A DNA stretch of 64,000 nucleotides from Martelella sp. HB161492. GTDB lineage: Bacteria; Pseudomonadota; Alphaproteobacteria; Rhizobiales; Rhizobiaceae. Where the stretch lies: assembly GCF_013184775.1 (NCBI RefSeq), contig NZ_JAATVV010000001.1, positions 186,001-250,000 of the forward strand, read 5' to 3'. The translations under genes were made by a program, and so were the position numbers. Numbering within the stretch: the first letter of the stretch is position 1; every line of letters begins with the position of its first letter. This document shows, piece by piece, positions 2,568 through 20,989 of this stretch. The notes below the pieces were generated by a model. It worked only from the letters and a program-made list of their open reading frames with translations, was not told where the DNA came from and did not search any database.

Positions 2568-2780
2568 GGATGATTCGCTCCCTCCCGCTTTGGCCGCGGT
2601 AAATTGCTGCCAAAGGTGTGTTTTTATTCGTTTCCGGCCTTCGAATAAACTGCGGCTTGTGCCATTGTCACGCGAAAACATAGCCCGGTCATCTTGAAAG
2701 AGTCGCATTCTTGGACACAGGTCTTTATACATGCGCACGTTTTCAGTATCCGGGACAGACGGTCCTTATAGGTAGGTAAA

Positions 2781-4079
<1,299 letters not shown>

Positions 4080-4130
4080 ACATAGTCACATTATTGTTCC
4101 GGCCCGTGACCGGGCAATTGGGGTTTATGC

Positions 4131-6062
4131 ATGGCGGATTTCGCTTCAGTCATTCGGCGGGCGGTAGAAGGACTACCGGACAACACGCCCGAACTGCGTG
4201 CACGCGTTTATGAAAAGGCGCGGGCCGCAGTGATCCGGCAATTGGAGAACATGTCTCCAAAGCCACCCGAATCCTTGATGAAACGGCAGATCGACAAGAT
4301 CGACACGGCCATTGCCGAGGTCGAAAGTGAATTTGCCGAGGCGATTGGCGAAGACGGGGCGATGGACGCCTTCGAAGACGCGCCACCGCCTGTGACAGAG
4401 CCGCCCGCCCCCAGACAGACGCCGCAAAAGCCCGCGCCGGAACAATATGCACCGCAACCGCGGCGGCTCGAACCGGAAGAAGCGCCCGCTCCGCAAGCAG
4501 CGCCCGAGCCGGTTGAACGGCGGCAGGACCCCGCTCCCTCCAGGGTGCAGGAAACATCCTGGTCGAAGCAGCATCGCGACGTCTGGGAAGAGCCCGCCGC
4601 AGCGGCAGAGCCTGCCGATAACGCGCCGGAATATGACGACACCCATGATTTTGACGATCGCTGTTCAGCGGCATCGCCAGGCCGGGGCCCTGCACAGGAG
4701 CCGGTTGAGGAAGAAGACATTTTCGCTCACGCGCATGATGCGCGCAGCATAGATGAGCCGCTGACCCGCGCGCCGCTGACACCGAGCCATGATGAAGGCT
4801 GGGGCAGCCCCGACGAAAGCGACATGCCGGAGGATGACGTCTGGCAGCCTGCGGCGCAGCAAAAGCAGACAAATCGCCAGGAGCCTGAGCACGAGGCCTT
4901 CGATCCCGCCTATTCGGGTGGAACGATACCCTTGGCACCGCCGCCGCCAAGCCGCCCGGCCTCGAATGCCGAATGGGACCATGTTGATACCATCCTTGGT
5001 CTCGCGCCCGGCGGCGCCCATGCCGATTTTGACGATCTCGATGACGATGAGGACGACACGCAGTGGCGCGACGATGACGATGAAACCGGCAAGGGCAAGT
5101 CCTTGCTGCGCCGGCTGCTGGTGCCGGTCATTGCCCTCGTCGTCGTGATAGCGCTTGGCATTGGCGGTTATTTCAGCTGGATGCACCGCGACCAGCTGCA
5201 AAGCCTTGTTGCCGGCGGCGAAAGTTCACCTGCGGCCGAAACGGCCACGCCTGCAGACTCGGCCACGGCGCCCGCCGATGCCGAAAATACGCCCGTTGTC
5301 GCGGCTGGCCAAAGCGGCACTGTCGACAAGCCCTATACCCAGCGGCTGCTGCCGGATGGCAATGAGGTTGATGAGGGGCTTCCTGCGGAAGGGTCCGGCA
5401 ATGGCACGACCCAGAGCGTTGCCGCCCAGACGACACCGAGCGCTTCCGCCGTGCCCGAGGGAACCGATACCTCCACGACCCCCGCCCCGCCGGTTGGCTC
5501 TGCACAGAAGATGTATCTTTATGAAGAGCAGCTCGGGCAGTCCGTACCGTCGGCCTATCAGGGCACGGTCGAGTGGAACCTGAAGCAGCAGAACAACAAT
5601 ACCTCGGTGCCGGAGCCGGTGATCGAAGGCAAGATGAGCGTTCCCGACGCCAAGCTTTCCGGCACGATCACCATTCGCCGCAATGACGATCCGTCGCTTC
5701 CCGCCAGCCATCTGATCGATATTTCGTTCGATCTCGGAGATGGATTTGACGGCGGCGCCATCGACAACCTGCAGCGGATCTCGCTGAAGGAAACCGAGGC
5801 GGCACGCGGCGATCCGCTGGTCGCGGTCTCGGCCAAGATCACCGACAATCTCTACATGGTCGCACTCAATGATTTCGATCAGGCCCGCAGCCAGAACCTG
5901 AGCCTGCTGCGCGACCGCAACTGGATCGACATTCCGGTGACCTACAGAAATGGCCGGCGGGCGCTGCTGACGCTTGAAAAGGGCACGACCGGCGAAGCGA
6001 TCTTCGACCGGGCCATCCAGGAATGGCAGGCGCTTGGCGATATCACCAGCGGCAGCAACTGA
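4131..6062 (+). CDS. Acidic, proline-rich single-span membrane protein (conserved hypothetical)
   Basis: This is a 643-residue protein. Residues 1-70 form a charged helical N-terminal region with a coiled-coil look. Residues 80-290 are low-complexity, rich in Pro, Glu, Ala and Gln. Residues 300-320 are an aspartate-rich cluster. A single transmembrane segment spans about residues 329-349 (LVPVIALVVVIALGIGG), preceded by a basic stop-transfer stretch, which places the long N-terminus in the cytoplasm. A periplasmic Thr/Ala/Pro linker (about 360-480) leads to a folded C-terminal domain (about 490-643). The architecture is typical of rhizobial envelope proteins of unknown function found next to purA. 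No enzymatic motif is seen. It may be a scaffold or cell-envelope factor, which is inference. A short GC hairpin just upstream (4100-4115) follows the purA stop. Confidence 0.85.
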   Translation: MADFASVIRRAVEGLPDNTPELRARVYEKARAAVIRQLENMSPKPPESLMKRQIDKIDTAIAEVESEFAEAIGEDGAMDAFEDAPPPVTEPPAPRQTPQKPAPEQYAPQPRRLEPEEAPAPQAAPEPVERRQDPAPSRVQETSWSKQHRDVWEEPAAAAEPADNAPEYDDTHDFDDRCSAASPGRGPAQEPVEEEDIFAHAHDARSIDEPLTRAPLTPSHDEGWGSPDESDMPEDDVWQPAAQQKQTNRQEPEHEAFDPAYSGGTIPLAPPPPSRPASNAEWDHVDTILGLAPGGAHADFDDLDDDEDDTQWRDDDDETGKGKSLLRRLLVPVIALVVVIALGIGGYFSWMHRDQLQSLVAGGESSPAAETATPADSATAPADAENTPVVAAGQSGTVDKPYTQRLLPDGNEVDEGLPAEGSGNGTTQSVAAQTTPSASAVPEGTDTSTTPAPPVGSAQKMYLYEEQLGQSVPSAYQGTVEWNLKQQNNNTSVPEPVIEGKMSVPDAKLSGTITIRRNDDPSLPASHLIDISFDLGDGFDGGAIDNLQRISLKETEAARGDPLVAVSAKITDNLYMVALNDFDQARSQNLSLLRDRNWIDIPVTYRNGRRALLTLEKGTTGEAIFDRAIQEWQALGDITSGSN

Positions 6063-6107
6063 TCGGCAATACCTCGGCATCATCGCCTGGGGCTCCGCCT
6101 CTCACAC

Positions 6108-6135
6108 AAACCCGCCGGCCACGCCGGCGGGTTTT
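6108..6135 (+). terminator. Rho-independent terminator after 4131-6062 gene
   Basis: There is a perfect 12-bp stem (AAACCCGCCGGC / GCCGGCGGGTTT) around a 3-base CAC loop, followed by TTTTG. It lies 46 bp past the stop codon and probably ends the purA-region transcript. Confidence 0.88.
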
Positions 6136-6327
6136 GTCGTTAACGCAGAACCCGCCGCGACCGCGTTCAGCACTCCGCTCTCTATTAGGCATCATGCGGA
6201 GCGCAAAACGATGCTTTTGCCCGCCCCATATTTTCCCTAAGCCTTGATAAGACGCAACAGGCGCTCCGATTTCACCTGCTCCGGCAAGCCTGCCGGGCGG
6301 GACAAAACCTCAATGCGGTAGGGAACA

Positions 6328-7128
6328 ATGGCGAAACGATTTTACTGGAATGAACTGATCAGCCGCGAATTTGCAGCACTCGACCCGAACACGACGATTG
6401 CCGTTCTTCCGGTCGCCTCGACCGAGCAGCATGGCCCGCATCTTCCCGTCGCGACCGATGTGGCGATCGCCCGCGGCATGCTGGATGCGCTTCAGGAGCG
6501 CCTGCCGGATGATCTCGACGTGCTGGTTCTGCCCGTTCAGGAAGTCGGCAAGGCCAACGAGCATATTTACGGCCCCGGCACCCTGTCGCTGCCGGCGGAA
6601 TTGCTGATCCAGGCCTGGACCACCATTGGTGAGAAGGTTGCCGCTGCAGGTCTGCGCAAGATGGTGATCATCAACAGCCATGGCGGCAATCTCGACGTGA
6701 TGAACATTGTCGCCCGCGAATTGCGCGTGCGCTACCAGATGGCCGTGGTCGCCACACAATGGGGCCGTTTTGGCCATCCGGAAGGTCTCATCAGCGAAGA
6801 TGAGCGCAGCTTCGGCATCCATGGCGGCGAGGTCGAGACATCACTGATGCTCAAGTTCCGCCCGGAACTGGTCAGCATGGAACACGCCAAGGATTTCATT
6901 TCCCTGGCCAAATGGCAGAAGGAAAACACCAAGCACCTGCAGCCGACGCCGCCGCATACACTGGCCTGGATCGCCCATGATCTGAACCCTGATGGCGCCC
7001 TCGGCAATGCCTCCATCGCCACCGTGGAAAAGGGCGAAGCCATCTGCGCTCACCAGATCACCGGCGTGATCGAACTGCTTTACGACCTGAAATCCTACCC
7101 GCTCGACAAGCTCTACAGCCCGGCCTGA
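6328..7128 (+). CDS. Creatininase-family amidohydrolase
   Basis: This is a 266-residue cytoplasmic protein of the creatininase/creatinine amidohydrolase superfamily, metal-dependent hydrolases that open cyclic or linear amides. Visible metal-site motifs are STEQHGPHLPVATD (Glu33, His35, Asp44), NSHGGN (His118) and HGGEVETS (His165, Glu168). The family includes creatininase, formamide hydrolases of riboflavin-type pathways and inosose hydrolases, so the substrate cannot be assigned. It converges with the LysR gene (16 bp between stop codons) and lies beside the ABC/amidohydrolase operon starting at 8259, so it may act in the same pathway on a product with an amide ring. That link is inference. 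Confidence 0.88.
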   Translation: MAKRFYWNELISREFAALDPNTTIAVLPVASTEQHGPHLPVATDVAIARGMLDALQERLPDDLDVLVLPVQEVGKANEHIYGPGTLSLPAELLIQAWTTIGEKVAAAGLRKMVIINSHGGNLDVMNIVARELRVRYQMAVVATQWGRFGHPEGLISEDERSFGIHGGEVETSLMLKFRPELVSMEHAKDFISLAKWQKENTKHLQPTPPHTLAWIAHDLNPDGALGNASIATVEKGEAICAHQITGVIELLYDLKSYPLDKLYSPA

Positions 7129-7144
7129 AGCCAGGCGACGCGCA

Positions 7145-8086
7145 TTATTGCGCCGACGGCGGCAGATATTGCTGCTCCTGCAATTCATCGATCATCGCAA
7201 CCAGCTCTTTCAGAAGGTAATCGACGAAAAGGCTGGTTGCGGCATCGAGCGGTGCCCGCGACCTGGAAAACAGCTTCATCGGCTGATGGCGCACATGGGC
7301 ATCGGCGAGCGGCCGGAAAGCGAGCTCGCCCCGCTTGCATTCGGAATAGACATCCAGCGGATTGAGGAAAGTCAGCCCCGTTCCGGCCTTGACCAGAAGC
7401 TTCAGCATTTCCGAGGCATTGGTCTCAAGCACCGGCTCGATCGGCAGAGACAGCGGCGACAGCGCCAGATTGATGACATTGCGCAGGCTGGTGCCCGATT
7501 GCGCCAGCACCAGCGGCTCCTGCACCACATCCGACAGATTGACCTTTTTAGCCGATGCCAGCGGGTGATCCGGCGGCATGACGACGCCGATCGGCACATC
7601 AAAGGAGGCGAGTGCGCGGATGCCGGGCGTCGCCGGAATATTGAAGCCAAGGCCGATATCGACATCGCCTGTCAGCACCATGGCAATCGTGGTCGTCCCG
7701 CCATCGGAGCGCAGATTGATGCGCACGCGCGGATTATTGCGGATGAAACGCGCGATGACCTCCGGCAGCGGCCCGGCGGCCAGCCCCACCGTCGTCACCA
7801 GCGTCACCTTGCCGGCCTGCGGCATTTTCAGCGCGCGTATGCGGCTTTCCAGCTTCTCGTAGCTTTTCAGCACTTCGCGGATATGCTCGACGCACATCTC
7901 GCCGGCCGCCGTCAGCCGCAATCCGCGCGGCAGACGCTCGAACAGGGGTGCCCCCAGCTCTTCCTCCAGCGCGAGGATCTGTCGATTGACCGCAGACGAG
8001 GCCACATTCAACCGCGCTGCCGCCTTTCTGATTGAGCCACAGCGGGCGATTTCATCGATATATTGCAGTTTTCTGGAATGCAGCAT
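7145..8086 (-). CDS. LysR-family transcriptional regulator
   Basis: This is a 313-residue LysR-type regulator. The N-terminal winged helix-turn-helix covers residues 1-60 (GSIRKAAARLNVASSAVNRQ, then LGAPLFERLPRGLRLTAAGE), followed by a periplasmic-binding-like effector domain (residues about 90-295). The frame extends upstream to 8206, but the ATG at 8086 (MLHSRKLQYIDEIA) fits the family start. It is divergent from the operon beginning at 8259, with a good T-N11-A palindrome between them (8183-8203), so it very probably controls that operon and itself. The effector is likely the imported substrate or a catabolic intermediate. Confidence 0.92.
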   Translation of the reverse strand: MLHSRKLQYIDEIARCGSIRKAAARLNVASSAVNRQILALEEELGAPLFERLPRGLRLTAAGEMCVEHIREVLKSYEKLESRIRALKMPQAGKVTLVTTVGLAAGPLPEVIARFIRNNPRVRINLRSDGGTTTIAMVLTGDVDIGLGFNIPATPGIRALASFDVPIGVVMPPDHPLASAKKVNLSDVVQEPLVLAQSGTSLRNVINLALSPLSLPIEPVLETNASEMLKLLVKAGTGLTFLNPLDVYSECKRGELAFRPLADAHVRHQPMKLFSRSRAPLDAATSLFVDYLLKELVAMIDELQEQQYLPPSAQ

Positions 8087-8182
8087 GTCAGCACCCGCGA
8101 CCCTTTTTGGCACGTGTCGGGCATGCTTAGCGCAATTTCGCGACAGCTGCAAAAAAAGCATCGTCCTGATCGTTTTTAGACC

Positions 8183-8203
8183 CTTTTCAAGATACGCGAA
8201 AAG
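8183..8203. promoter_or_regulatory. Candidate LysR operator (CTTTTC-N9-GAAAAG)
   Basis: A perfect 6-bp inverted repeat with a 9-base spacer sits in the 172-bp divergent region between the LysR gene and the first binding-protein gene. It contains the T-N11-A core (T8187, A8199) typical of LysR recognition sites. Its position suits regulation of both directions. Confidence 0.6.
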
Positions 8204-8258
8204 CATTCATATAAATTTGCTGATATTCAATTCCAACGGAAAAACGGGGAACAGCGAC

Positions 8259-9272
8259 ATGGTGAAACACGCAAAGGCAACGGCCCTTTCGGCCGCTGCC
8301 ATCTTTACGCTATTGGGCGCGAACGCGCCGGCAATGGCGCTCGACAAGGTCAAGTTCGGCACGAACTGGCTCGCCGAGGCCGAACATGGCGGCTACTATC
8401 AGGCCGTGGCCGACGGCACCTATGAGAAATACGGACTTGATGTCGAGATCGTGCAGGGCGGCCCGCAGGCGGCCAATAGTGCACTGCTGATTGCCGGCAA
8501 AATCGATTTCTACATGGGTTCGCCCCAGGGCTCGATCAACGCCATTATCCAGCAGATCCCGATCATGGATGTTGCGGCCATCTTCCAGAAGGATCCGCAG
8601 ATCCTGATGGCGCATCCGGATCAGGGCATCGAGACATTTGCGGATCTGGCAAAGCTGCCGACCATCCTGATGGGCAAGGACGGCTTCCTGTCCTATTTCG
8701 AATGGATGAAGGCCAATTTTACAGGCTTTTCCGACAGCCAGTATAAGCCTTATACCTTCAACCCTGCGCCCTTCATCGCCGATCCGAAATCGGCCCAGCA
8801 GGGTTACCTGACCTCCGAACCCTTCGCGGTTGAGCAGCAGGCCGGCTGGACGCCGAAGGTCTTTCTTCTGGCCGATCAAGGCTATTCGCCCTATTCGGAA
8901 ACCATCACCGTTCAGAAAAAGCTGGTGGAAGAGAATCCGGATCTGGTTCAGCGCTTCGTCGATGCCACGATCATCGGCTGGTACAATTATCTCTACCACG
9001 ACAACAGCGCCGCGAACGCCCTGATCAAAAAAGACAATCCCGACATGACGGATGAGCAGCTGGCCTATTCGATCGCGAAGATGAAGGAATATGGCCTGGT
9101 CGAATCCGGTGATGCCGATGACGGAGGCATCGGCTGCATGACGGATGCGCATTACAAGAAATTCTACGACGAGATGGCCGCCGTCGGACTGTTTGAGACC
9201 GGCGTTGCTTTCGACAAGGCCTACACCACCGATTTCGTCTGCAAGAATGTCGGTGCCGATCTGAAACCGTAA
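8259..9272 (+). CDS. NMT1/THI5-like ABC substrate-binding protein, copy 1
   Basis: This is a 337-residue periplasmic binding protein. The signal peptide spans about residues 1-27 (AMA cleavage), and the mature protein begins LDKVKFGTNWLAEAEHGGYYQA, the hallmark of the NMT1/THI5-like family (relatives bind formylaminopyrimidines, sulfonates, nitrate or riboflavin-type compounds). The ATG at 8259 has GGGGA eight bases upstream; the longer open frame from 7986 is rejected because it lacks a signal peptide and crosses the LysR gene. A second, highly similar copy follows at 9740. First gene of a seven-gene unit with ATPase, permease and three enzymes. Ligand unknown; a pyrimidine-like or other N-heterocycle is suggested by the enzymes downstream. 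Confidence 0.92.
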   Translation: MVKHAKATALSAAAIFTLLGANAPAMALDKVKFGTNWLAEAEHGGYYQAVADGTYEKYGLDVEIVQGGPQAANSALLIAGKIDFYMGSPQGSINAIIQQIPIMDVAAIFQKDPQILMAHPDQGIETFADLAKLPTILMGKDGFLSYFEWMKANFTGFSDSQYKPYTFNPAPFIADPKSAQQGYLTSEPFAVEQQAGWTPKVFLLADQGYSPYSETITVQKKLVEENPDLVQRFVDATIIGWYNYLYHDNSAANALIKKDNPDMTDEQLAYSIAKMKEYGLVESGDADDGGIGCMTDAHYKKFYDEMAAVGLFETGVAFDKAYTTDFVCKNVGADLKP

Positions 9273-9739
9273 CAGATCGCACTCATTTTGCGTGCGCTAC
9301 CGGAGCGCGTGACGATATGCGTCAACATCGCTGCCATGCCTCACCTCCGGCGGTCCAGACCCCGCCGGAGCATTTCGGCGGCGAAAATATACACGCATAG
9401 GGAAGTGTCGTAATACATGTAAGTTTCCAGGGTTGTATTTCAACGATACAACGTCCGGCGCACTGTGTTTCCACTGCGACATCTCAGCACGTAAATGCGG
9501 CGATCGGCATAGTTTTCAAAGGGAAATCCGGCGGATAAACCCCTCAGGAACACAGCAATTAAGCAGGCGCTGTTCAATTTTTACGCATAACGAACACAAA
9601 AGCTTCAATTTACCAATTGGTGCAAAAAAGAGAGCGATGTGGACGAATTTTGGTGCTTCTCAAGGCGCAGTCCAGCCGCTCAAATAGAATTTCGGATCGT
9701 CAATTTCGTGACACCGTTACAGCGAAGGGGAATAGCTAA
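9273..9739. other. 467-bp intergenic region between the two binding-protein genes
   Basis: There is no convincing gene here. An inverted repeat at 9345-9370 (CTCCGGCGG / CCGCCGGAG, 8-base loop) without a T-run could be a weak terminator or mRNA-processing hairpin after copy 1. The distal half (9560-9740) is AT-richer and holds a 10-bp palindrome at 9612-9621, as expected for a second promoter region in front of copy 2. Confidence 0.5.
9612..9621. promoter_or_regulatory. Palindrome ACCAATTGGT, candidate operator before binding-protein copy 2
   Basis: This is a perfect 10-bp palindrome in an AT-rich stretch 119 bp before the ATG at 9740. Its symmetry and position suit a dimeric repressor or activator site, different from the LysR-type palindrome at 8183. 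No regulator can be assigned. Confidence 0.3.
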
Positions 9740-10756
9740 ATGTCCATTTTTTCGAAAACCAGTTTGCTTGGCGCAGCAGCAACCGTTGCCGTAATGGCAG
9801 CGGTATCCAGCCCGGCAATGGCGCTCGACAAGGTCAAGTTCGGCACCAACTGGCTCGCAGAAGCCGAGCATGGCGGCTACTATCAGGCGGTTGCCGACGG
9901 CACCTATGAAAAATACGGCCTCGATGTCGAGATCGTTCAGGGCGGCCCGCAGGCTGCCAATAATGCGCTGCTGATCGCCGGCAAGATCGATTTCTTCATG
10001 GGCACGCCACTGACCAATCTGAATGCCGTTGCTGAAGGTATTCCGATTGTCGATATCGCCGGCATCTTCCAGAAGAGCCCCGAAATCCTGATGGCACACC
10101 CCGATCAGGGCATCGACAAGTTCGAGGATCTGGCAACGCTGCCGACCATCCTGATGGGCAAGGACGGCTTTCTGTCCTATTTCGAATGGATGAAGGCCAA
10201 TTTCGAAGGCTTCAGCGACAGCCAGTACAAGCCCTACACCTTCAACCCGGCCCCCTTTATCGCCGATCCGAAGTCTGCTCAGCAGGGCTACCTGACCTCC
10301 GAACCCTACGAGATCCAGAAGCAGACCGGCTGGGAGCCCAAGGTATTCCTTCTCGCCGACCAGGGCTATTCGCCCTACGCCGAAACGATCACCGCCCAGA
10401 CCAAGCTGGTCAAGGAAAACCCTGATCTGGTTCAGCGTTTCGTCGATGCAACGCTCATCGGCTGGTACAACTATCTCTATGGCGACAACACTGCAGCCAA
10501 CGACCTGATCAAGAAGGACAATCCGGATATGACGGATGGTCAGATCGAATATTCCATCGCCAAGATGAAGGAATATGGCATCGTTGAATCCGGTGACGCC
10601 GATGAAGGCGGTATCGGCTGCCTGACCAAGGCCCATTATGACGGCTTCATCGCCGACATGGTCAAGGCCGGCGTCATCAAGGAAGGCCCGGATTACACCG
10701 CCGCCTACGATCCCGAATTCGTCTGCAAGAAGGTCGGCATGGAGCTGAAGAAGTAA
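9740..10756 (+). CDS. NMT1/THI5-like ABC substrate-binding protein, copy 2
   Basis: This is a 338-residue paralogue of the 8259 gene, with a different signal peptide (MSIFSKTSLLGAAATVAVMA to AMA, about residues 1-28) but an almost identical mature start. Most of the mature sequence aligns without gaps. The main block of difference is the segment after KIDF (FMGTPLTNLNAVAEGIP here, YMGSPQGSINAIIQQIP in copy 1), a region likely to line the ligand cleft. The pair therefore looks like a tandem duplication with shifted specificity feeding one ATPase/permease pair. It is followed after 80 bp by the ATPase gene. A purine-rich GAAGGGGAA lies before the ATG. Confidence 0.92.
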   Translation: MSIFSKTSLLGAAATVAVMAAVSSPAMALDKVKFGTNWLAEAEHGGYYQAVADGTYEKYGLDVEIVQGGPQAANNALLIAGKIDFFMGTPLTNLNAVAEGIPIVDIAGIFQKSPEILMAHPDQGIDKFEDLATLPTILMGKDGFLSYFEWMKANFEGFSDSQYKPYTFNPAPFIADPKSAQQGYLTSEPYEIQKQTGWEPKVFLLADQGYSPYAETITAQTKLVKENPDLVQRFVDATLIGWYNYLYGDNTAANDLIKKDNPDMTDGQIEYSIAKMKEYGIVESGDADEGGIGCLTKAHYDGFIADMVKAGVIKEGPDYTAAYDPEFVCKKVGMELKK

Positions 10757-10836
10757 TTCTTCCCATCTGAACGCCGCCGGCCCGCCGCTTTACGCGGGCC
10801 GGCTCCAGCAACGCCCAAGAAACCGGATCGAAGCGA

Positions 10837-11667
10837 ATGTCGCAAACAGGCGCCGCACTTGCGGATACTACTCCTCCATCGCTCGCCAAACCGCTGGTCA
10901 AGATGGAGCATGTGAGCAAGATTTTCTCCAATGGAACGCTCGCTCTCAACGATATGTCGCTTACCGTGGAACGCGGTCAGTTCATCAGCCTTCTCGGTCC
11001 GTCGGGCTGTGGCAAATCAACGGCCCTGCGCATCATGTCGGCGCTCGGCGATATCACGACGGGCACGATCGACTGGCCGAGTTCGCGCATTTCCTCCAAG
11101 GGCCGTCCGGAAGGCGATATCAGCTTTGTCTTCCAGGAGCCGACCCTGATGCCCTGGAAGACGGTGTTCGGCAATGTCTATCTGCCGTTGAAACTGCGCG
11201 GCGTCACCAAGGCAGCTGCAGCACCGGAGATCGAGAAGGTTCTGAAGACCGTCGGCCTGCAGGACTTTGCCAATGCCTATCCGCGCGAATTGTCCGGCGG
11301 CATGAAGATGCGCGTTTCCATTGCCCGCGCGCTTGTGACCAAGCCAAAGCTGCTGTTGATGGATGAGCCCTTCGCGGCCCTTGATGAAATCACCCGTCAG
11401 CGCCTCAATGACGACGTGCTGAAGCTGTGGCGCGAGACCGGTATCACGGTCATCTTCGTCACCCATTCCGTTTTCGAATCCGCTTATCTTTCCAGCCGCA
11501 TCGTTGTCATGCGCGCCCGTCCTGGCCAGGTTTTCGACGACTTCCCGCTCGTCACCAGCGCCGAGCGCGACGAAGACTATCGCACCTCGGAAGAATATCG
11601 CGCCGCCTGCGAGAAGGTCTCACACTCTCTGCAGGGCGCCATCCAGGCAGCCGGAGGACACCACTGA
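10837..11667 (+). CDS. ABC transporter ATPase (SsuB/TauB/ThiZ-like)
   Basis: This is a 276-residue cytoplasmic ATPase. Motifs are Walker A GPSGCGKS (about residues 54-61), the Q-loop in FVFQEPTLMPWKT, signature LSGGMKMR, Walker B LLLMDEPFAALDE and the switch His in VTHSVFESAYL. The family energises uptake of nitrate, sulfonate, taurine and pyrimidine-type substrates. Its stop overlaps the permease start by one base (TGATG), so the two are translationally coupled. A GC-rich inverted repeat lies between copy 2 of the binding protein and this gene (about 10772-10803), a possible processing hairpin that would let binding protein be made in excess. Confidence 0.93.
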   Translation: MSQTGAALADTTPPSLAKPLVKMEHVSKIFSNGTLALNDMSLTVERGQFISLLGPSGCGKSTALRIMSALGDITTGTIDWPSSRISSKGRPEGDISFVFQEPTLMPWKTVFGNVYLPLKLRGVTKAAAAPEIEKVLKTVGLQDFANAYPRELSGGMKMRVSIARALVTKPKLLLMDEPFAALDEITRQRLNDDVLKLWRETGITVIFVTHSVFESAYLSSRIVVMRARPGQVFDDFPLVTSAERDEDYRTSEEYRAACEKVSHSLQGAIQAAGGHH

Positions 11668-12512
11668 TGAGCGATCAGGCCATTGATGCCGCAACACTGC
11701 GGCCACAGCAGACTTTCTTCACCAAGAACAAGGATCTGATCCTGCAGATCGGCATTCCGGTGCTGGTCATCCTGTTTCTCGTCTTCGTCTGGCAGATGAT
11801 CGTCATCATCTACAAGACGCCGCCCTATATCCTGCCCGGCCCGACGCTGGTTGCCGAAGCCTTCGTGCGGGACTGGGGCATTCTGGCACCGGCACTCTGG
11901 GTCACCACCAAGATCACCTTCATCTCGCTGTTTCTCGCCCTTGTCGGCGGTGTCGGCCTTGCGGTGATCATGGTCCAGTCACGCTGGCTTGAACTGGCGC
12001 TCTACCCGATCACCGTCATCCTGCAGGTCACGCCGATCGTTGCCATCGCACCGCTGATCCTGATCTATACGCCGACCACCCAGGTCGCGCTTCTGATCTG
12101 CGCCTTCCTCGTCGCCTTCTTCCCGATCCTGTCCAACATGGCCCAGGGCCTGAAGAGCGTCGATCACAACCTCATCAACATGTTCGAGCTCTACGGCGCC
12201 TCGCGCTGGCAGACGCTCATTCATCTGAAACTGCCGGCCTCGCTGCCCTATTTCATGACCGGCCTCAGGATCGGCGGCGGCCTTGCCCTGATTGCCGCTG
12301 TCGTTGCCGAATTTGCCGCAGGCTCTGCAGGCGCTGGCTCAGGCCTTGCATTCCGCTTGCTGGAGGCACAGTTCCGCCTTAACATTCCGCGTCTCTTTGC
12401 AGCGCTGATCATGCTTGGCATGCTGGGTGTCGCAATCTTCGCGCTCACCTCCTTCATTGCCTGGCTCAGCCTGCATCGCTGGCATGAGAGCAGCATCAAG
12501 CGGGAAAACTGA
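11667..12512 (+). CDS. ABC transporter permease (SsuC/TauC/ThiX-like)
   Basis: This is a 281-residue inner-membrane protein beginning MSDQAIDAATLRPQQ, with about six transmembrane segments and the EAA loop YGASRWQTLIHLKLPASLP that contacts the ATPase. The ATG at 11667 overlaps the ATPase stop codon by one base; the longer frame from 11427 lies inside the ATPase gene and is not used. Its stop overlaps the next start by one base (12512). It forms the membrane channel for the binding proteins at 8259 and 9740. Confidence 0.93.
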   Translation: MSDQAIDAATLRPQQTFFTKNKDLILQIGIPVLVILFLVFVWQMIVIIYKTPPYILPGPTLVAEAFVRDWGILAPALWVTTKITFISLFLALVGGVGLAVIMVQSRWLELALYPITVILQVTPIVAIAPLILIYTPTTQVALLICAFLVAFFPILSNMAQGLKSVDHNLINMFELYGASRWQTLIHLKLPASLPYFMTGLRIGGGLALIAAVVAEFAAGSAGAGSGLAFRLLEAQFRLNIPRLFAALIMLGMLGVAIFALTSFIAWLSLHRWHESSIKREN

Positions 12513-13825
12513 TGTCCACGAATTTCGTTGAACTTCCTTCAGCGCGTCATTTCGCGCTGAAGCACTGCACATTGCCCAAAATCAGCGTCAATGGCGCCGA
12601 TGATTTCGCGGCCCGCGAAGGTCTGATCAAGGCCGATCTCATCATCGCCGATGGCAAGGTCGATCAGATCCTGCCCTATGGTTCAGCCGATGCCACGCTT
12701 CCCGCGGCCGATCTGCGTGACGGCATGGTCTGGCCCTGCTTTGCCGAACTCCACACCCATATCGACAAGGGCCATATCTGGGAGCGGCGGCGCAATCCCG
12801 ACGGCACCTTCATGGGCGCACTGGAAAATGTGAAGCTCGACCGCGAGGCCAACTGGTCGGCGGACGATGTGGCCGCGCGCATGGAATTCTCGCTGAAGAC
12901 AGCCTATGCCCACGGCACCGCCCTTCTGCGCACCCATCTCGACAGCCTGCCACCGCAGCATCGCATCTCGTTCGAGGTCTTCTCCGCGATGCGCGAGAAA
13001 TGGAAGGGCCGAATTGACCTGCAGGCCGTCGCGCTATTCTCCACCGAGATGATCTTCGAGCCATTCTTCGACGATCTCGTTCAGGTGATCCGCGACCATG
13101 GCGGTCTTCTTGGCGGTGTCACCATGATGCTGCCCGATCTCGACGCCCAGCTCGACAAGATGTTCCGCACCGCAAGTGATAACGGCTTCGATATCGACCT
13201 GCATGTCGACGAGACCGAAGAGCGCGAAGTGCTGACGCTGAAGAAAATCGCCGAGGCCAAGATCCGCAACGGCTATGAAGGCAAGGTCACGGTTGGCCAT
13301 TGCTGCTCGCTGGCGCGCCAGGATGAGGAAACCGCGAAACGCACCATTGATGTGGTCGCCAAAGCCGGTCTTTCGGTCGTCTCGCTACCGATGTGCAACA
13401 TGTATCTGCAGGACCGGCACACGGGCCGCACGCCACGCTGGCGCGGTGTCACCCTGTTCAAGGAACTGACCGCCGCCGGTGTTCAGACCTGCGTCTCCTC
13501 CGACAATACCCGCGACCCCTTCTATGCCTATGGCGATCTTGATGGTGTCGAAGTCGTCCGCGAGGCAGTCCGTATTCTTCAGCTCGACCATCCTCTCGAT
13601 GAAGCCGCGCGCATCATGACCCGCACGCCGGCCGAAATTATGGGGGTTGCCGACCGCGGCGTGATTGCCGAAGGCGGCCCCGCCGATCTCGTCTTGTTCA
13701 GCGCCCGGCGCTGGAGCGAGTTTCTGTCCCGTCCGCAGGCTGACCGCATCGTGATGCGGAATGGCATGGGCATCGACCGCAGCCTGCCGGATTATCGCGA
13801 ACTTGACCCGCTCATGGATAAGTGA
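12512..13825 (+). CDS. Cytosine-deaminase-like amidohydrolase
   Basis: This is a 437-residue metal-dependent amidohydrolase of the CodA (cytosine/creatinine/isocytosine deaminase) branch, cytoplasmic. Ligands can be read off: HTH (His81, His83), HVDE (His231, with Glu234 as general acid), GH (His263) and SSDNTRDP (Asp331), in the order and spacing of E. coli CodA. Substrate-side residues differ enough from CodA (around SSDNTRDPFYAYGDLDG) that cytosine is not assured; related enzymes deaminate creatinine, isocytosine or pterin-like rings. One-base overlap with the permease gene upstream, and the next gene starts at once downstream. The transporter probably delivers its substrate. Confidence 0.88.
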   Translation: MSTNFVELPSARHFALKHCTLPKISVNGADDFAAREGLIKADLIIADGKVDQILPYGSADATLPAADLRDGMVWPCFAELHTHIDKGHIWERRRNPDGTFMGALENVKLDREANWSADDVAARMEFSLKTAYAHGTALLRTHLDSLPPQHRISFEVFSAMREKWKGRIDLQAVALFSTEMIFEPFFDDLVQVIRDHGGLLGGVTMMLPDLDAQLDKMFRTASDNGFDIDLHVDETEEREVLTLKKIAEAKIRNGYEGKVTVGHCCSLARQDEETAKRTIDVVAKAGLSVVSLPMCNMYLQDRHTGRTPRWRGVTLFKELTAAGVQTCVSSDNTRDPFYAYGDLDGVEVVREAVRILQLDHPLDEAARIMTRTPAEIMGVADRGVIAEGGPADLVLFSARRWSEFLSRPQADRIVMRNGMGIDRSLPDYRELDPLMDK

Positions 13826-13827
13826 AC

Positions 13828-15237
13828 ATGACTGACTATCAGCAGATCAAGGCCGAACTTGAAGGCATTGCCATCGAAGACAATCCCGCAATGGTTCTGC
13901 GCAAGAGCCGGGACTTCTACTGGTACTCGCCAATTCTCAAGGCGCAGCTTGAACATGTCACCGGCGACCTGATCGTCTCCCCGGAAAATGAAGACGAACT
14001 GATCAAGGTGCTGAAGGTTGCCTTCAAGCATGACGCGCCCGTGACCGCGCGTGGCGGCGGCACCGGCAATTACGGCCAGTCCATGCCGCTGTCCGGCGGT
14101 ATCGTGCTCGACATGACCAAAATGAACCGGATCAAGCTGATCGAGCCTGGCCGCGTCATTGCAGAGCCAGGCATCATCTGCGCCGAGCTTGATCGCCAGA
14201 CCAAGGCCCATTCCGGCCAGGAACTGCGGTTCCACCCTTCCACCACCGGTCAGGCAACCCTCGGCGGCTTCATCGCCGGTGGCTCCGGCGGTGTCGGTTC
14301 GGTCCACTGGGGCGGCCTGCGCGATCTCGGCAATGTGCTGCGTCTCAGGATCGTCACGCTGGAGGCCGAACCGCGGGTGATGGAGCTGACCTCGCTCGAT
14401 CTGCTCAAGGTCTCCCATGCCTATGGCACCAACGGCATCATCACCGAAGTGGAAATGCCGCTGGCACCTGCCTATGAATGGGTGGATGTGATCGTCGGCC
14501 ATGACAGCTTCATGGATGCGGTGCGTTTCTCCGATCATCTGGCAAGCTCCACCGGCATTCTCACCAAGGAAATCGCCCCGATTGCGGCACCGGTTCCCTA
14601 TAACTATTTCACCCGGCTGAAGCCTTTCCTCGAAGAAGGCGAGTCGATCTCCGTCGTCATGGTGGCGCCGCACTCGATCGAGCCGTTCAAGGCGCTGGTC
14701 GAGGTGCATGGCGGCACGATCCGTTATCGCTCGGACACGGCGGAGAACACCAAGGGCGTGCCGCGCGCCTATGAGCTCGGCTGGAACCACACGACGCTGC
14801 GCGCGATGAAGATGGAGCCTGACAATTTCACCTATCTTCAGGTTCAGTATCCGAGCCCCGGCCATGTCGCCAAGGTTCAGGAAATGTGCGCGATCTTCGG
14901 CGACGAAGTGATCGGCCATCTGGAATTTCTGCGTTTTGACGGCGCAATCCAGTGCTCGGGCCTGCCACTGGTGCGTTACACCACGCCGGAGCGCCTGGAA
15001 GAGATCATCCGTATTCACGAAGAAAACGGCTGCCCGGTGTTCAATCCGCACCGCTATACGCTGGAAGAAGGCGGCATGAAGCAGACGGACGAGCGACAGC
15101 TGGAATTCAAGAAGGAAACCGATCCGAAGGGGCTGCTGAACCCCGGCAAGATGATTGCCTGGGACGACCCGGAATTCGATTTCAAGGCCGGCAAGAACTA
15201 CCTGTTCAAGGGTATCACCGCCGTTACCGGAGAATAG
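13828..15237 (+). CDS. FAD-linked oxidase (PCMH/VAO fold)
   Basis: This is a 469-residue flavoprotein. The FAD-binding PCMH motif VTARGGGTGNYGQSMPLSGG is at about residues 70-90, with the second half TTGQATLGGFIAGGSGGVGS near 137-157 and a C-terminal NPGKM motif typical of glycolate-oxidase/D-lactate-dehydrogenase-like FAD_binding_4 proteins. Such enzymes oxidise alcohols, hydroxy acids or amines and pass electrons to oxygen or a carrier. A GTG at 13822 overlaps the upstream stop, but the ATG at 13828 is taken as the start. It is likely the oxidative step after the deaminase in the same operon. Substrate unknown. Confidence 0.85.
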   Translation: MTDYQQIKAELEGIAIEDNPAMVLRKSRDFYWYSPILKAQLEHVTGDLIVSPENEDELIKVLKVAFKHDAPVTARGGGTGNYGQSMPLSGGIVLDMTKMNRIKLIEPGRVIAEPGIICAELDRQTKAHSGQELRFHPSTTGQATLGGFIAGGSGGVGSVHWGGLRDLGNVLRLRIVTLEAEPRVMELTSLDLLKVSHAYGTNGIITEVEMPLAPAYEWVDVIVGHDSFMDAVRFSDHLASSTGILTKEIAPIAAPVPYNYFTRLKPFLEEGESISVVMVAPHSIEPFKALVEVHGGTIRYRSDTAENTKGVPRAYELGWNHTTLRAMKMEPDNFTYLQVQYPSPGHVAKVQEMCAIFGDEVIGHLEFLRFDGAIQCSGLPLVRYTTPERLEEIIRIHEENGCPVFNPHRYTLEEGGMKQTDERQLEFKKETDPKGLLNPGKMIAWDDPEFDFKAGKNYLFKGITAVTGE

Positions 15238-15238
15238 C

Positions 15239-15820
15239 ATGCGCGTCCTGGTCCTCTTTTCGCATCCGGTGGAGACGAGCTACGGCGCAGCACTCCACCG
15301 CCAGGTGGTCGAAAGCCTGACGGCGGCCGGCCATGAGGTGGATGATTGCGATCTTTATGCCGAGAATTTCTCCCCGGTCCTGACCCGTGAGGAGCGGATG
15401 GGCTACCACACCTATCCGGAAAACACCGAACCGGTGAAATCCTATGTCGAGCGGCTGAAGGCGGCGCAAGCGCTGGTCATCTGCACGCCGATCTGGAATT
15501 TCGGTTTCCCGGCCATCCTGAAGGGTTATTTCGACCGCGTCTGGCTGCCGGGTGTCAACTTCTCGATCGAAAACGGCAAGGTGCAGCCGTCGCTGCGCCA
15601 TATCCGCAAGATCGCCGCTGTCTTCACCTATGGTGGCGACCGCAAGCGGGCCTTCCTTGCGGGTGATCCGCCGAGAAAGCTGTTCATGCGGGCCATCCGC
15701 GTGCAGGTGAAGCTCGGCGCGCCGGCGAAATTCCTCGCCCATTACGACATGAACAACTGCACACCGGAAACAAGGGCGAAGTTCCTTGCCAAGGTAAAGC
15801 GGGAAATGGAAGCGTTCTGA
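15239..15820 (+). CDS. NAD(P)H-dependent flavodoxin-fold oxidoreductase
   Basis: This is a 193-residue cytoplasmic protein of the flavodoxin-like/NAD(P)H:quinone oxidoreductase (MdaB/KefF/WrbA-like) family. Visible are the N-terminal beta strand and FMN-phosphate region (VLVLFSHPVETSYG) and the core TPIWNFGFPAILKGYFDRVW. The ATG at 15239 lies two bases after the stop of the FAD oxidase, so it is the last gene of the operon. It may supply reduced flavin or reduce a quinone or imine intermediate made by the FAD oxidase; this pairing is inference. A strong terminator follows 30 bp downstream. Confidence 0.88.
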   Translation: MRVLVLFSHPVETSYGAALHRQVVESLTAAGHEVDDCDLYAENFSPVLTREERMGYHTYPENTEPVKSYVERLKAAQALVICTPIWNFGFPAILKGYFDRVWLPGVNFSIENGKVQPSLRHIRKIAAVFTYGGDRKRAFLAGDPPRKLFMRAIRVQVKLGAPAKFLAHYDMNNCTPETRAKFLAKVKREMEAF

Positions 15821-15903: not shown

Positions 15904-16150
15904 GACGACGCGCAGAGCGTTTCCAGGAAGAGCGGATACCGGTTTTCCGTCCGGAAACGCGAGGAAACAAAGACTTGGAGCGCCGTGCGTCCTTCTGGGC
16001 GCACGGCGCTCCAACTTATTTGGTCAGCGGATCGAGACGCCTCCTAGAGCGCCGTGCATCCATTCGGATGCACAAAGGACGCTCTAACTTATTGAATCTA
16101 CGCATCGTTCTTTTCGAAAATCGATTCCGATTTTCGAGCCGATGCGCTAG
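15904..16150. repeat. Mosaic of rhizobial palindromic intergenic repeats
   Basis: Three palindromic modules stand in a row. Module 1 (about 15912-15970) contains GAGCGTTTCCAGGAAGAGCG and the ACCGGTTTTCCGTCCGGAAA core. Module 2 is a near-perfect hairpin at 15976-16012 (GGAGCGCCGTGCGTCC / GGGCGCACGGCGCTCC). Module 3 (16047-16150) joins a degenerate copy of module 2 (GAGCGCCGTGCATCC ... GGACGCTC) to the ACGCATCGTTCTTTTCG / CGAAAATCG / GATTTTCG hairpin. I recall near-identical modules scattered between genes in Rhizobium, Agrobacterium and Brucella genomes. It separates the catabolic operon from the PqaA-like gene, whose stop codon lies at its right edge. Confidence 0.75.
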
Positions 16151-17970
16151 TTCGGGTTGTTGATGATATAGACCGGGCTTTCCCGATAGTGCTTGCTGAC
16201 GAGCGCAGGTGGGTGCTCACCGGGATAGATAACGCCAAGGAAAAAACCGAGATAGGCCGACGAGGGATCGCCATTGCATCCCTGCATCCGCTCCACGATC
16301 CAGGAAAAGCTCGGATTCCAGCGCCAGAAGAAAAAGCCGTCAGGCACAAACTCGACGTCACTGAAATAGGCCTTGTCTGAATATCTTATCGGATCGCCGC
16401 TCTGATAGGGATATATTAGAAGGTCCGTCTTGTTGTTTGCATAGGCGCAGCGATAGTAGACTGCAGCTCCATCATCCTGGATCAGTGGCAATTGCGTGGT
16501 CTTGATCAGGAACGACTGCCCGGCGGACTGCCACATAAGCTGTGACATGAAATTGTTGGCGTATTGCGATTCGGGGGTATAGTTGAAGATGTTGCCTGAG
16601 ATTCCCGTTGCATCAATGACGAATCCGAGGATTGCAAAGGCCGGCTCGATGAGGCTCGGATAATCCTTCGGGTCGATGCGCCCGTGGCCGACATTCGGCA
16701 TCTGAACGAGGGAAGCATAGGGATCGAAACCGCCAATCCAGAAATCTTCCATGACATAGGCAGGAGCGATGGGCGTGAAATAGTCATCATGCGTCGCCGC
16801 GACTTCAAGGATCGGGAATCCATTCAATATCCCGGAACTCTGCCGGAGATAGGGAGCAATATCCACCTGAGCCTCCCAGGCGGCAAAGCTTCCGCTGGAA
16901 ATAACGTCGAGAAGGTTGCGATCGCTTGTGTTGTATTTCTTGTCGCGTTCATAGGGTTGCAGGTCGTGAGACCACCCGTGGTATTCAGACGGGAAATAGA
17001 AATTGGCACTGATGGACGACAGCACGGGCTGCAGATCGAAGGGCATGACCATCGGAATTGCGGCCTTCGACATCTGATCATGCGTCAGATCATACATCAG
17101 CGCCAGGTAAAGCGCCCAGCCGCGCTTCGATGCACCCGCCAGCACATAATTCGTGGCCCGCGGGAAATGCGCCAGATCCGATATCTGTCCGACCGAAGCC
17201 ATCCCCGCCTCCATTCCATGGACCAGCGACGAGGCCATCGGAAACAGCGTCACATAGTCCATATACTCGTTTATCTGGTCCAGGTGCTTTCCGGGATACA
17301 TGATACTTTCGGCGATGAGATCATCTTCGCTCCGGAGATAATAATTGCCGTCAATCGGACTTTTGATCTCGACCGGTTCAACCGGAATATCGAGCTGCAC
17401 GATGATCGGAACATTCGTCGACGCCGAAATCAGCGAAGCGAGATTGGCGGTAACGCAGTTGACATCGGTCGAAGTAATCCTGCAGCCACTTGTCAGAACG
17501 GCATCGATATCCTGCGGCTGCATGCCGTAGGATGGCAAGGTTATGATCTCAGCCAGAAGATCGTGGAACAGGGCATAGTAGAATTCCGCATCCTCGGTAC
17601 CGCCCGCGCCAAGATAAAGATATTCGCTGGAGCCTCCGCCGAAATTCGAAGGCTTGGTCACAATCACCTTCTGGGTCCAGGCGCCGCCGCCGCTGTCTGC
17701 CGAAATAAAGTCAGAAGCAGTGTTGTACCAGCTCGTCTGTGCAACAAAGTCGCAGAGGTAAGTTTCCGAAAGGGCTGTCGCCAAGGTGTTGACCGATTCG
17801 CAATTGCTATAGGTGCCCGCGGCTCCGACCGTGTTGTCGATAAAGTCGAACAATTGCGCAAGTGGCTTCGGTTGCTCAGCGAGCACGGGGCTTTCCGCCA
17901 CAAAGGAAGCTGCAAAAACTATCCCAATGGCGACGAGCTTTCTCGCCGCCAATGCAGTCAATACGTGCAT
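16147..17970 (-). CDS. Secreted PhoPQ-activated pathogenicity-related (PqaA-like) protein
   Basis: This is a 607-residue protein with a signal peptide (residues 1-31, AESPVLA|EQP) and an alpha/beta-hydrolase-like core. The segment NYVLAGASKRGWALYLALMYD (about residues 260-290) matches the GASKRGW motif of the PhoPQ-activated pathogenicity-related family, where the Ser is the likely nucleophile. A downstream His in PNVGHGRIDPKDYP fits a catalytic triad. Four to six Cys residues in the mature part suggest disulfides and a periplasmic or secreted site. The ATG at 17970 is preceded by GGAGGCGAAA, a good ribosome-binding site. Family function is poorly known. It stands alone between a repeat mosaic and an AT-rich gap, and its base composition looks somewhat less GC-rich than its neighbours, so it may have been acquired. 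Confidence 0.78.
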   Translation of the reverse strand: MHVLTALAARKLVAIGIVFAASFVAESPVLAEQPKPLAQLFDFIDNTVGAAGTYSNCESVNTLATALSETYLCDFVAQTSWYNTASDFISADSGGGAWTQKVIVTKPSNFGGGSSEYLYLGAGGTEDAEFYYALFHDLLAEIITLPSYGMQPQDIDAVLTSGCRITSTDVNCVTANLASLISASTNVPIIVQLDIPVEPVEIKSPIDGNYYLRSEDDLIAESIMYPGKHLDQINEYMDYVTLFPMASSLVHGMEAGMASVGQISDLAHFPRATNYVLAGASKRGWALYLALMYDLTHDQMSKAAIPMVMPFDLQPVLSSISANFYFPSEYHGWSHDLQPYERDKKYNTSDRNLLDVISSGSFAAWEAQVDIAPYLRQSSGILNGFPILEVAATHDDYFTPIAPAYVMEDFWIGGFDPYASLVQMPNVGHGRIDPKDYPSLIEPAFAILGFVIDATGISGNIFNYTPESQYANNFMSQLMWQSAGQSFLIKTTQLPLIQDDGAAVYYRCAYANNKTDLLIYPYQSGDPIRYSDKAYFSDVEFVPDGFFFWRWNPSFSWIVERMQGCNGDPSSAYLGFFLGVIYPGEHPPALVSKHYRESPVYIINNPN

Positions 17971-18445: not shown

Positions 18446-20149
18446 ATGGCCGATCAGTTCATCGTCGACGAAAGCCGGTTGCGGAAACTCCGCGGCCATG
18501 TCCCCGTCAACGCCGTGCTTCACGTCTGGCTCAAGGCGACACAGCCCCATGCGGCAGCAGAGCTTCGTCTGGCCCTCAACGACCGGATTTTTGGCAATGT
18601 CTTCGTCGAAAATGCCGAGGAATATGAGTTCCGCATGTTCTTCATGCCCCATGGCGGTGAACTCGAATGCGCCTATGATCCCGAAACCACGACGATTTCG
18701 GTTGCCTACTGGTTCACGGATGCCTCTGTGCTTGAGGAAGGCATCACGGTTTTGCGCACCCATGCCGCCAATGCCCCAGCCCCGGCCCCCGGCAGCTATC
18801 ACTTCCGCCCGCCTTTCGGCTGGATGAATGATCCGAATGGATTTGGCCGCTTCAACGGCTCGGCTCACCTGTTCTATCAGCATTACTCCCATGGGCTGAC
18901 CTGGAACACCATGCATTGGGGTCACGCCATTTCGGAGGACTTCCTCCACTGGCGGCATCTGCCGATCTTCCTGTTTCCGTCAGAAGATCTGACCCACCGG
19001 CCGGACCGGCGCGGTGGCGCCTTTTCCGGCTCGGCCATTCCGCTCGACGACAGCGCCGGAATTCGCGTCTTCTTCACCGAGCACGTCATCGAGCGGGCGC
19101 CCGAACGCGAAATCCAGATGATGGCGACATCGCAATCGCTGATTTTCGCCGGCGCGGCAAAACTTCTGATCGGCGAGCGTCCGGCAGACCAGAATCTGAC
19201 CCAGGATTTCCGCGATCCTTATGTGTTCCGCGGACCCGATGGCTACTGGAAGATGCTGCTCGGCAGCCGCAGCGGCGAGGCCGGTGTCGTGCTGCTTTAC
19301 GAAACCGCCGATGTCACTGCGGCGTCAGGCTGGGAATTTGTCTCAATTCTGCATTCCGAGAGCCGCTTCAACACCCAGGTGATCGAATGTCCCTGCCTGC
19401 TGCCGCTTGACGGACCTGCGGGTGATCCGGCAACCCACTGGGTGCTGATTGCCGGCCTGATGCACAGCCATGACGAGGTGACGGGGCGCAAAAACCTGAC
19501 CTCTGCCACTGTCGGCCATTTCGACGGCAAGCAATTCACGCCGGACTTCGAGCAGGAACTGGATTTCATCGCCGACAATTATGCCTTTCAGGCCTTTCTC
19601 GACCACGGAACGCCGGTCGGAATCGGCTGGCTTGCCAACTGGGCCGATGCCCGCCCGGAAATCGACTTCCCGACCGCCATGACGCTGCCGCGCAATATCG
19701 TCTACGAGGATGGAGTCCTGAAAACGCCGCCGATCGCCGGCGTCGAAGCCTTGCGCGCCGCGCTGGTCGACGACAGCGCCCTGGCCGGCGGCGAAACGGT
19801 GGAGCTGGAACATGGACAGGCAGAGATCATCATCACGCTCAATGACGATGACGCGCCCTTCGAGCTTGATCTCTACCACCACAATCTGGAAATCATTCTC
19901 CGGCTTGATGGTGATGGCCTGCGCCTCACCTATCACGACGACACGCATCAGCCAAAGCCTGACTACGTCTCTCCCCACGCGAAACCGAAGGAATTGCGCA
20001 TCTTCCTTGATATCGGCTCGATAGAGGTCTTTGCCGACAACGGCCGCTGGACCGGCACCAAGCGCATTGCCGGCTTCGACCCCGTCCATTCGCTGAGGAT
20101 CCGTGAGGGCAATATTGCCTCGGCAAAGATCTGGGCGCTGGCGCTATGA
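18446..20149 (+). CDS. GH32 beta-fructosidase (sucrose/fructan hydrolase)
   Basis: This is a 567-residue glycoside hydrolase family 32 enzyme that splits terminal fructose from sucrose or fructo-oligosaccharides. The catalytic set is visible: nucleophile Asp129 in GWMNDPNG, Asp257 in FRDPYVF (transition-state stabiliser) and acid/base Glu314 in ECPCLLP. The beta-propeller spans about residues 118-420 and a C-terminal beta-sandwich 440-567 (IFLDIGSIEVFADNGR). Residues 1-115 form an extra N-terminal domain not part of the usual GH32 core. There is no signal peptide, so it acts in the cytoplasm. GGAGGGGAGACGGAAAGGAAGA precedes the ATG within 25 bases. No sugar transporter or regulator is adjacent. 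Confidence 0.9.
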   Translation: MADQFIVDESRLRKLRGHVPVNAVLHVWLKATQPHAAAELRLALNDRIFGNVFVENAEEYEFRMFFMPHGGELECAYDPETTTISVAYWFTDASVLEEGITVLRTHAANAPAPAPGSYHFRPPFGWMNDPNGFGRFNGSAHLFYQHYSHGLTWNTMHWGHAISEDFLHWRHLPIFLFPSEDLTHRPDRRGGAFSGSAIPLDDSAGIRVFFTEHVIERAPEREIQMMATSQSLIFAGAAKLLIGERPADQNLTQDFRDPYVFRGPDGYWKMLLGSRSGEAGVVLLYETADVTAASGWEFVSILHSESRFNTQVIECPCLLPLDGPAGDPATHWVLIAGLMHSHDEVTGRKNLTSATVGHFDGKQFTPDFEQELDFIADNYAFQAFLDHGTPVGIGWLANWADARPEIDFPTAMTLPRNIVYEDGVLKTPPIAGVEALRAALVDDSALAGGETVELEHGQAEIIITLNDDDAPFELDLYHHNLEIILRLDGDGLRLTYHDDTHQPKPDYVSPHAKPKELRIFLDIGSIEVFADNGRWTGTKRIAGFDPVHSLRIREGNIASAKIWALAL

Positions 20150-20412: not shown

Positions 20413-20802
20413 TCAAAGCACCTTCGCCGCCGTCACTTCCACCTCGACGAGGAATTCAGCGCGGGTGAAGCCGCCGACAACCAGCAGCGTCGAAACCGGC
20501 AGCGGATCACAGGTGTAGCGGTCGCGCACTTCCATGTAAGCAGGGAAATCCTCGCGCATGGTGACATAGCCGTTGATGCGGATGACATCGGCGAAGCTCA
20601 TGCCGCCCTCTTCCAGGATCTTGCGGATCGCCTCGAAGCACAGTTCGGCCTGTCCCTTGACAGTGCGCGGGATCACGTCATCCGGTCCGATGCCGAGCTG
20701 TCCGGAGGTGACCAGCAGTGATGCGCCGGGCGGCACGTAAAGGCCATGGCTGTAATTGCCGAATGGTTGGCGCACGCCGGGCGGGTTGATGCTCTTTTTC
20801 AT
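20413..20802 (-). CDS. Rid-family (RidA/YjgF-like) protein
   Basis: This is a 129-residue protein of the Rid/YjgF/YER057c family; archetypal RidA deaminates reactive enamine/imine intermediates in the cytoplasm. The frame extends to 20937, but the ATG at 20802 (MKKSINPPGVRQPFGNYSHG) is chosen because GGAGG lies eight bases upstream. The fold motifs LVTSGQLGIGPD, GGMSFADVIRINGYVT and AEFLVEVEVTAAKVL are clear. The position of the key RidA Arg is occupied by a hydrophobic/polar context (PVSTLLVVGGFTRAEF), so Arg in GFTRAEF should be checked for the active-site role. It lies 187 bp downstream of the aldehyde dehydrogenase gene on the same strand... start-to-stop order suggests separate or loose linkage. 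Substrate unknown. Confidence 0.85.
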   Translation of the reverse strand: MKKSINPPGVRQPFGNYSHGLYVPPGASLLVTSGQLGIGPDDVIPRTVKGQAELCFEAIRKILEEGGMSFADVIRINGYVTMREDFPAYMEVRDRYTCDPLPVSTLLVVGGFTRAEFLVEVEVTAAKVL

Positions 20803-20989
20803 CAGGATTGCCTCCGAAGCCAGCACATCGCCGATGCAGCCACAAGGCGGCAAACGGAAAACAATGTGCAATCTCACGATGTTGTTGCGCCCCGCATGTG
20901 TCATTTCAGGCCATGAGGGGCGCTTTATGTCAGTCACGCATGGCCGGGATGGTCCGCGCTGTCAAGACTTTACCGCAATATGCGAGGCC

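Follow-up and report, generated by a model that had tools for sequence, protein, structure and literature searches.

We examined a 64,000-nucleotide stretch of the Martelella sp. HB161492 genome (contig NZ_JAATVV010000001.1, positions 186,001 to 250,000), here called the window, which carries an operon of transporter and enzyme genes for the uptake and breakdown of a presumed N-heterocycle. All coordinates of its genes are counted from the first base of the window. At the left end lies a gene for a creatininase-family hydrolase (6328..7128, + strand; PF02633, 234 bits), followed by the open reading frame (ORF) of a LysR regulator on the - strand (7145..8206; PF03466/PF00126). The regulator probably starts at 8086, judging from the begin of the ORF of a homolog. 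The remaining genes follow on the + strand. Two of them encode NMT1/THI5-like substrate-binding proteins (8259..9272 and 9740..10756; PF09084, 82 and 92 bits) with 77-78% amino acid identity, the second being a local duplicate of the first. They are followed by the ATPase (10837..11667; PF00005) and the permease (11667..12512; PF00528) of an ATP-binding cassette (ABC) transporter, a CodA/AtzC-like amidohydrolase (Amidohydro_3, 12512..13825), which is a probable deaminase of a pterin-type ring, a VAO-fold flavin adenine dinucleotide (FAD) oxygenase of the FAD_binding_4 family (13822..15237) and a flavodoxin-fold oxidoreductase of the NAD(P)H:quinone or flavin mononucleotide (FMN) type (Flavodoxin_2, 15239..15820; PF02525, 110 bits). 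The nine genes named in the original prediction were recovered as intact ORFs at these coordinates, with all Pfam matches above the cut-off. From the ATPase to the reductase, neighbouring genes overlap or almost abut. The best named relative is a Martelella alba locus (L009), whose FAD oxidase is 99% identical to that of the window; it has two binding-protein copies, and loci L010 and L011 have one each. Scans of 8150-10900 for promoters and terminators returned sites that were no more numerous than in shuffled sequences.

A tenth member, absent from the original prediction, is the gene for an atypical RidA-family protein on the - strand (20413..20802; PF01042, 65 bits), located 4.6 kb from the reductase gene. 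The operon and this gene are separated by genes for a PhoPQ_related protein (16147-17970, - strand) and a GH32-type hydrolase (18446-20149, + strand). Searching the whole genome (5.28 Mb in 52 contigs) with a hidden Markov model (HMM) built from 16 operon RidAs, the window's own not included, gave 199 bits for the window protein versus 32.5 bits for the next best, with 11 RidA-family matches in the genome. By these scores the protein is the ortholog of the operon-adjacent RidA of other genomes. The position of the canonical active-site Arg (R105) is occupied by Ser in all 20 aligned operon RidAs (the window and 19 others), and two non-operon RidA paralogs of the same genome have the Arg at that position. 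This sets the operon protein apart from the standard RidA imine deaminases.

The original prediction had proposed that enzymes and transporter form one unit and had made their failure to travel together its own point of refutation. We found them to co-occur strictly. An oxidase of the operon kind was detected in 99 of 247 sampled genomes of the window's own family (E 1e-60; family according to the tool's classification) and, in a class-level sample, in 19 of 385 genomes (E 1e-50). From the 99 matching genomes 37 loci were chosen by hand, and thus non-randomly, with locus L154 (100 bases) excluded; they comprise 19 loci of type A, which means merely neither B nor C, 8 of type B and 10 of type C. 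Component genes were detected by profile searches on all ORFs. All 19 type-A loci had creatininase-like, binding-protein, ATPase, permease, CodA-like and reductase genes near the FAD oxidase, i.e. all six partner types; RidA was present in 16 and LysR in 6 of them.

The surroundings of the oxidase, out to about 10 kb, were also evaluated in 48 loci of mixed origin (named genomes, plasmids and other sources), which include the window and its paralogous cluster; two partial Firmicutes loci of 30% identity (L029 and L030) were excluded. Here CodA-like genes were found in 43 loci, ATPase in 42, permease in 41, binding protein in 39, creatininase-like and reductase genes in 35 each and RidA in 31. 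These counts are lowered because several loci stop at contig ends. As a control, none of the three other FAD_binding_4 paralogs in the window's own genome had any operon component in the surrounding 20 kb. The arrangement of the genes varies: in Mesorhizobium loci the creatininase-like and RidA genes diverge from the transporter genes, and the operon parts are rearranged in Klebsiella, Pantoea and on a Comamonadaceae plasmid; the first two have a PDR/VanB reductase instead of the flavodoxin-fold one. In one sampled genome (G128; L080 and L089) the oxidase is present as four paralogs, of which three form a tandem array at a single site. The operon is a widespread, conserved gene set.

The closest link to a described protein is provided by the FAD oxygenase. 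It is 62% identical over its full length (459 amino acids) to PDB entry 6v42, and 6v42/6v43 scored 674 bits versus 64 bits for the next distinct PDB sequence. A Foldseek search with the predicted model, which is of moderate quality (mean predicted local distance difference test score, pLDDT, of 72), likewise returned 6v42 as top match (E 2.2e-53), in agreement with a common fold. Judged by identity and fold, the window oxygenase is a member of the 6v42 family, while its reaction and substrate are predictions only. The title of the entry reads "Crystal structure of the flavin oxygenase with cofactor bound involved in folate catabolism". The structure presumably comes from the Begley group. In the open-access literature, which leaves out most subscription papers, no paper on the 6v42 enzyme or its pathway was found. 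The original prediction, which knew of no characterised pathway with this gene set, was thus nearly right; it fails insofar as the oxidase belongs to the family of a structure titled as acting in folate catabolism.

Among the sampled sequences the one most similar to 6v42 is the oxidase of locus L155 (89%), and a quick, midpoint-rooted tree built from 89 oxidases places 6v42 next to L155 and L156. Locus L155 holds the same kind of operon, in which two reductase genes occur along with RidA, creatininase-like and CodA-like genes. Creatininase-like, binding-protein, ABC transporter, CodA-like, reductase and RidA genes are common to the window, L155 and L156. Set against the 6v42 system, the window locus is distinguished by the LysR gene, a single reductase gene, two binding proteins and the distance of its RidA gene from the operon. 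Of the 19 type-A loci, 16 group in the tree with the window and 6v42 in one clade; type B forms one well-supported clade, and type C is not a single clade. The oxygenase family as a whole is broad, with identities to 6v42 down to about 35% and varying partners, and the structures closest to the CodA-like enzyme include AtzC. Both observations would suit another N-heterocycle, such as a plant alkaloid, an s-triazine-like compound or a synthetic ring, with the folate label of 6v42 fitting part of the family only. We consider such a substrate unlikely for the window, whose gene at 62% identity and with an unchanged gene set does not represent a distant branch.

The amidohydrolase and the creatininase-family protein bear on the substrates that the original prediction had named. 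The former is labelled "cytosine deaminase" by NCBIfam (PRK07583, 658 bits versus a cut-off of 403). Alignment to E. coli CodA (1k6w) showed that it keeps every metal and catalytic residue, namely H61, H63, H214 and D313 as metal ligands and E217 and H246 as catalytic residues; none of these varies in the 14 aligned rows. The cytosine-binding residues Q156, D314 and W319 of CodA are replaced by S, N and F. The latter two replacements, N332 and F337 in the window protein, are also invariant in the 14 aligned relatives. In a structure search with the predicted model (pLDDT 85) the nearest structures were 5-methylcytosine deaminase, AtzC and CodA at 21-24% identity. Since the metal and catalytic residues are kept and the cytosine-binding ones are changed, the enzyme looks like a deaminase-type protein with another specificity. 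Plasmid pADP-1 (L204, 8938-10269) encodes a related amidohydrolase that shares 51-57% identity with its CodA-like counterparts in the operon loci L203, L205 and L206. It lies near cyanuric acid genes and together with a BMP-type ABC transporter, without the operon.

The creatininase-like protein keeps E34, H36, D45 and H120 of creatininase and has E122 replaced by G and W174 by F. Its score of 90 bits is far below the cut-off of 235 for the NCBIfam equivalog TIGR04448. Going by residues and score, it is a member of the family and not creatininase itself. Catabolism of creatinine, hydantoin or cytosine and other pyrimidines, to which the family names and the NCBIfam label would point, is very improbable: the substrate or active-site residues for creatinine and cytosine are changed in the respective enzymes. 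Taken together, the strict neighbourhood conservation supports the proposal that an N-heterocycle is imported, deaminated, oxidised and hydrolysed, and of the three substrate types put forward the pterin-like one is retained, while the residues speak against creatinine and cytosine.

The genome contains a second, paralogous cluster of type B on contig 44, whose oxidase is 49% identical to that of the window. This cluster comprises creatininase-like, CodA-like, reductase and ABC transporter genes, an IclR-like regulator (assigned by eye) and two flanking FolD homologs (L063:18196-19074, - strand; L064:7014-7895, + strand); a further FolD is encoded elsewhere in the genome. FolD homologs were found in 5 of the 8 sampled type-B loci, two of which are cut by contig ends, and in the contig-44 cluster itself, versus 0 of 19 type-A and 0 of 10 type-C loci. 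They fall into two subfamilies with complementary motif losses: the first keeps the lysine of YxxxK and VQLPLP and has lost PGGVGP, whereas the second has lost the first two motifs and keeps GVGP. The same complementary losses occur in the four other sampled genomes that have both subfamilies (L124, L125, L127 and L128). The FolD homologs tie the wider oxidase family to folates, as a hint independent of 6v42; alternatively, they could serve one-carbon disposal. A FolD gene beside the operon in Bosea (L025) is the one that most resembles the stand-alone FolD of the window's genome (55.5%), looks like a housekeeping gene and was for this reason not counted as support.

Some loci of types B and C additionally carry hydantoinase A/B, DAO-type oxidase, ureidoglycolate lyase-like, Rieske oxygenase or ferredoxin-reductase-like genes. 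The hydantoinase A/B and ureidoglycolate lyase-like genes of type-B clusters would fit catabolism of a purine or oxidised purine (xanthine, urate, 8-oxopurine) by NMT1-type import, CodA-like deamination and ring opening by an oxygenase. In the accessible part of PMC7373994, NMT1-type binding proteins, deaminases and dioxygenases are reported to occur with the xanthine (NMT1-motif) riboswitch. Searches for this riboswitch (RF03054) in the window at 5.5-21.5 kb, in 7 related loci and across the genome gave no match, which counts against a purine; the genome-wide negative is weak, as no control genome gave a match either. No other Rfam family reached its gathering score in this part of the window and the 7 loci. 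Together with the folate label of 6v42 this makes a purine substrate quite unlikely.

We therefore favour a folate- or pterin-ring catabolic operon, because the oxidase is 62% identical to 6v42 and the nearest sampled relative of 6v42 resides in the same kind of operon. In our view it is reasonably likely that the ring taken up and degraded is a pterin or pteridine, either free or derived from folate. The pterin-type substrate is a probable assignment resting on a PDB title, homology and context. Several points weigh against this reading. The substrate assignment hangs mainly on the one title. The fork uniting the window and 6v42 to the exclusion of types B and C received a value of 87 in the Shimodaira-Hasegawa-like approximate likelihood ratio test (SH-aLRT), i.e. 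below the mark of 95, so that it is suggestive but not firm, and three of the 19 type-A loci (L145, L159 and L161) lie outside of it. The FolD homologs accompany only the diverged type B and one Bosea locus, not the type of the window, and both contig-44 homologs score below the NCBIfam FolD cut-offs. A RutC-like step by a Rid protein that lacks the canonical Arg is doubtful from its sequence. Finally, the operon genes do not include a carboxypeptidase G gene, for which no dedicated search was made; whole folate may therefore not be the substrate.

Under the favoured reading of pterin-ring degradation, the following sequence of events can be envisaged. An NMT1/THI5-type binding protein together with the ABC transporter would import the ring compound. 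The CodA/AtzC-like metal enzyme would then hydrolyse the exocyclic 2-amino group, converting a pterin into a lumazine-type compound. Next, with electrons coming from the flavodoxin-fold NAD(P)H reductase, the FAD oxygenase would activate O2 at the flavin and open the pyrimidinedione ring oxidatively, much as RutA does with uracil, though on an unrelated fold. The resulting amide or ureido bond would be cut by the creatininase-family metal hydrolase, and the Arg-less Rid protein could handle an enamine- or imine-type product, such that the end products would be at the level of urea, ammonia and carboxylates. In the lineage of the window, the divergent LysR regulator probably governs expression. 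On the Rhizobium etli plasmid pC (L062) the operon is preceded by urea amidolyase and amidase genes (2455-7805) and followed by RidA, isochorismatase and allophanate hydrolase genes (the latter two at 20837-24087). Ureido products fit this arrangement, since the operon is flanked by urea amidolyase/amidase and allophanate hydrolase genes.

More tentatively, and with somewhat less than even confidence, we propose that the gene set forms the core of a widespread, essentially undescribed pathway that opens and mineralises pteridine rings by means of a CodA/AtzC-like pterin deaminase, a VAO-fold flavin oxygenase with RutA-like chemistry on an unrelated scaffold, a hydrolase of the creatininase family and a Rid protein without the Arg. 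Under this proposal the pathway has diversified through paralogs, among them the clusters whose conserved FolD-like pair would admit folates that carry one-carbon units. The kind is known in part through 6v42, and the pathway seems otherwise poorly described. The conserved set plus RidA would name a probable ring-opening gene set for folate breakdown, and many genes annotated as "cytosine deaminase" or "creatininase family" would gain a common context. This puts the pathway within reach of tests that need just a few purified proteins.

Beyond the 3' end of the operon, two matches to the Brucella small RNA BASRCI27 (15907-16065, + strand, and 15993-16157, - strand) remained with 40 and 24 bits below the Rfam gathering score of 60. 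As they overlap in opposite orientations, they perhaps mark a palindromic repeat element.

Compared with known systems, the window amidohydrolase has its fold and all metal and catalytic residues in common with E. coli CodA and AtzC and differs from CodA in the substrate-binding residues. A likeness to the Rut pathway can be inferred at the level of its parts, i.e. a flavin oxygenase with reductase, a Rid-family protein and an amidohydrolase for opening a pyrimidinedione ring; as far as the accessible text of PMC7662398 goes, RutA cleaves an amide bond of uracil via a flavin-N5 oxygen species. RutA is, however, a group C FMN monooxygenase and the window oxygenase a VAO-fold FAD_binding_4 protein; moreover, the window Rid protein is without the canonical Arg, and import is by an ABC system. 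For triuret hydrolase, the accessible text of PMC7948467 gave no gene-cluster link to the operon.

Bacterial folate degradation by pterin deaminase is established, and Variovorax F1 uses carboxypeptidase G and pterin deaminase according to the available portion of PMC9513972. The same portion states that environmental folate breakdown "has not been fully elucidated" and describes deamination and glutamate loss. In Variovorax F1, again within this portion (PMC9513972), the pterin is deaminated by an amidohydrolase encoded near predicted cytosine and creatine amidases, and in V. paradoxus an "endoribonuclease" gene lies downstream of the pterin deaminase gene. This resembles the window, with the difference that no oxygenase is reported there for folate degradation in Variovorax F1. 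In the Pantoea variant of the operon a gene for a 399-amino-acid amidohydrolase is followed by RidA, and in the Comamonadaceae locus RidA is located elsewhere. We regard the Pantoea, Klebsiella and Comamonadaceae variants as a lead, namely as a possible bridge between the operon and the pterin deaminase of Variovorax.

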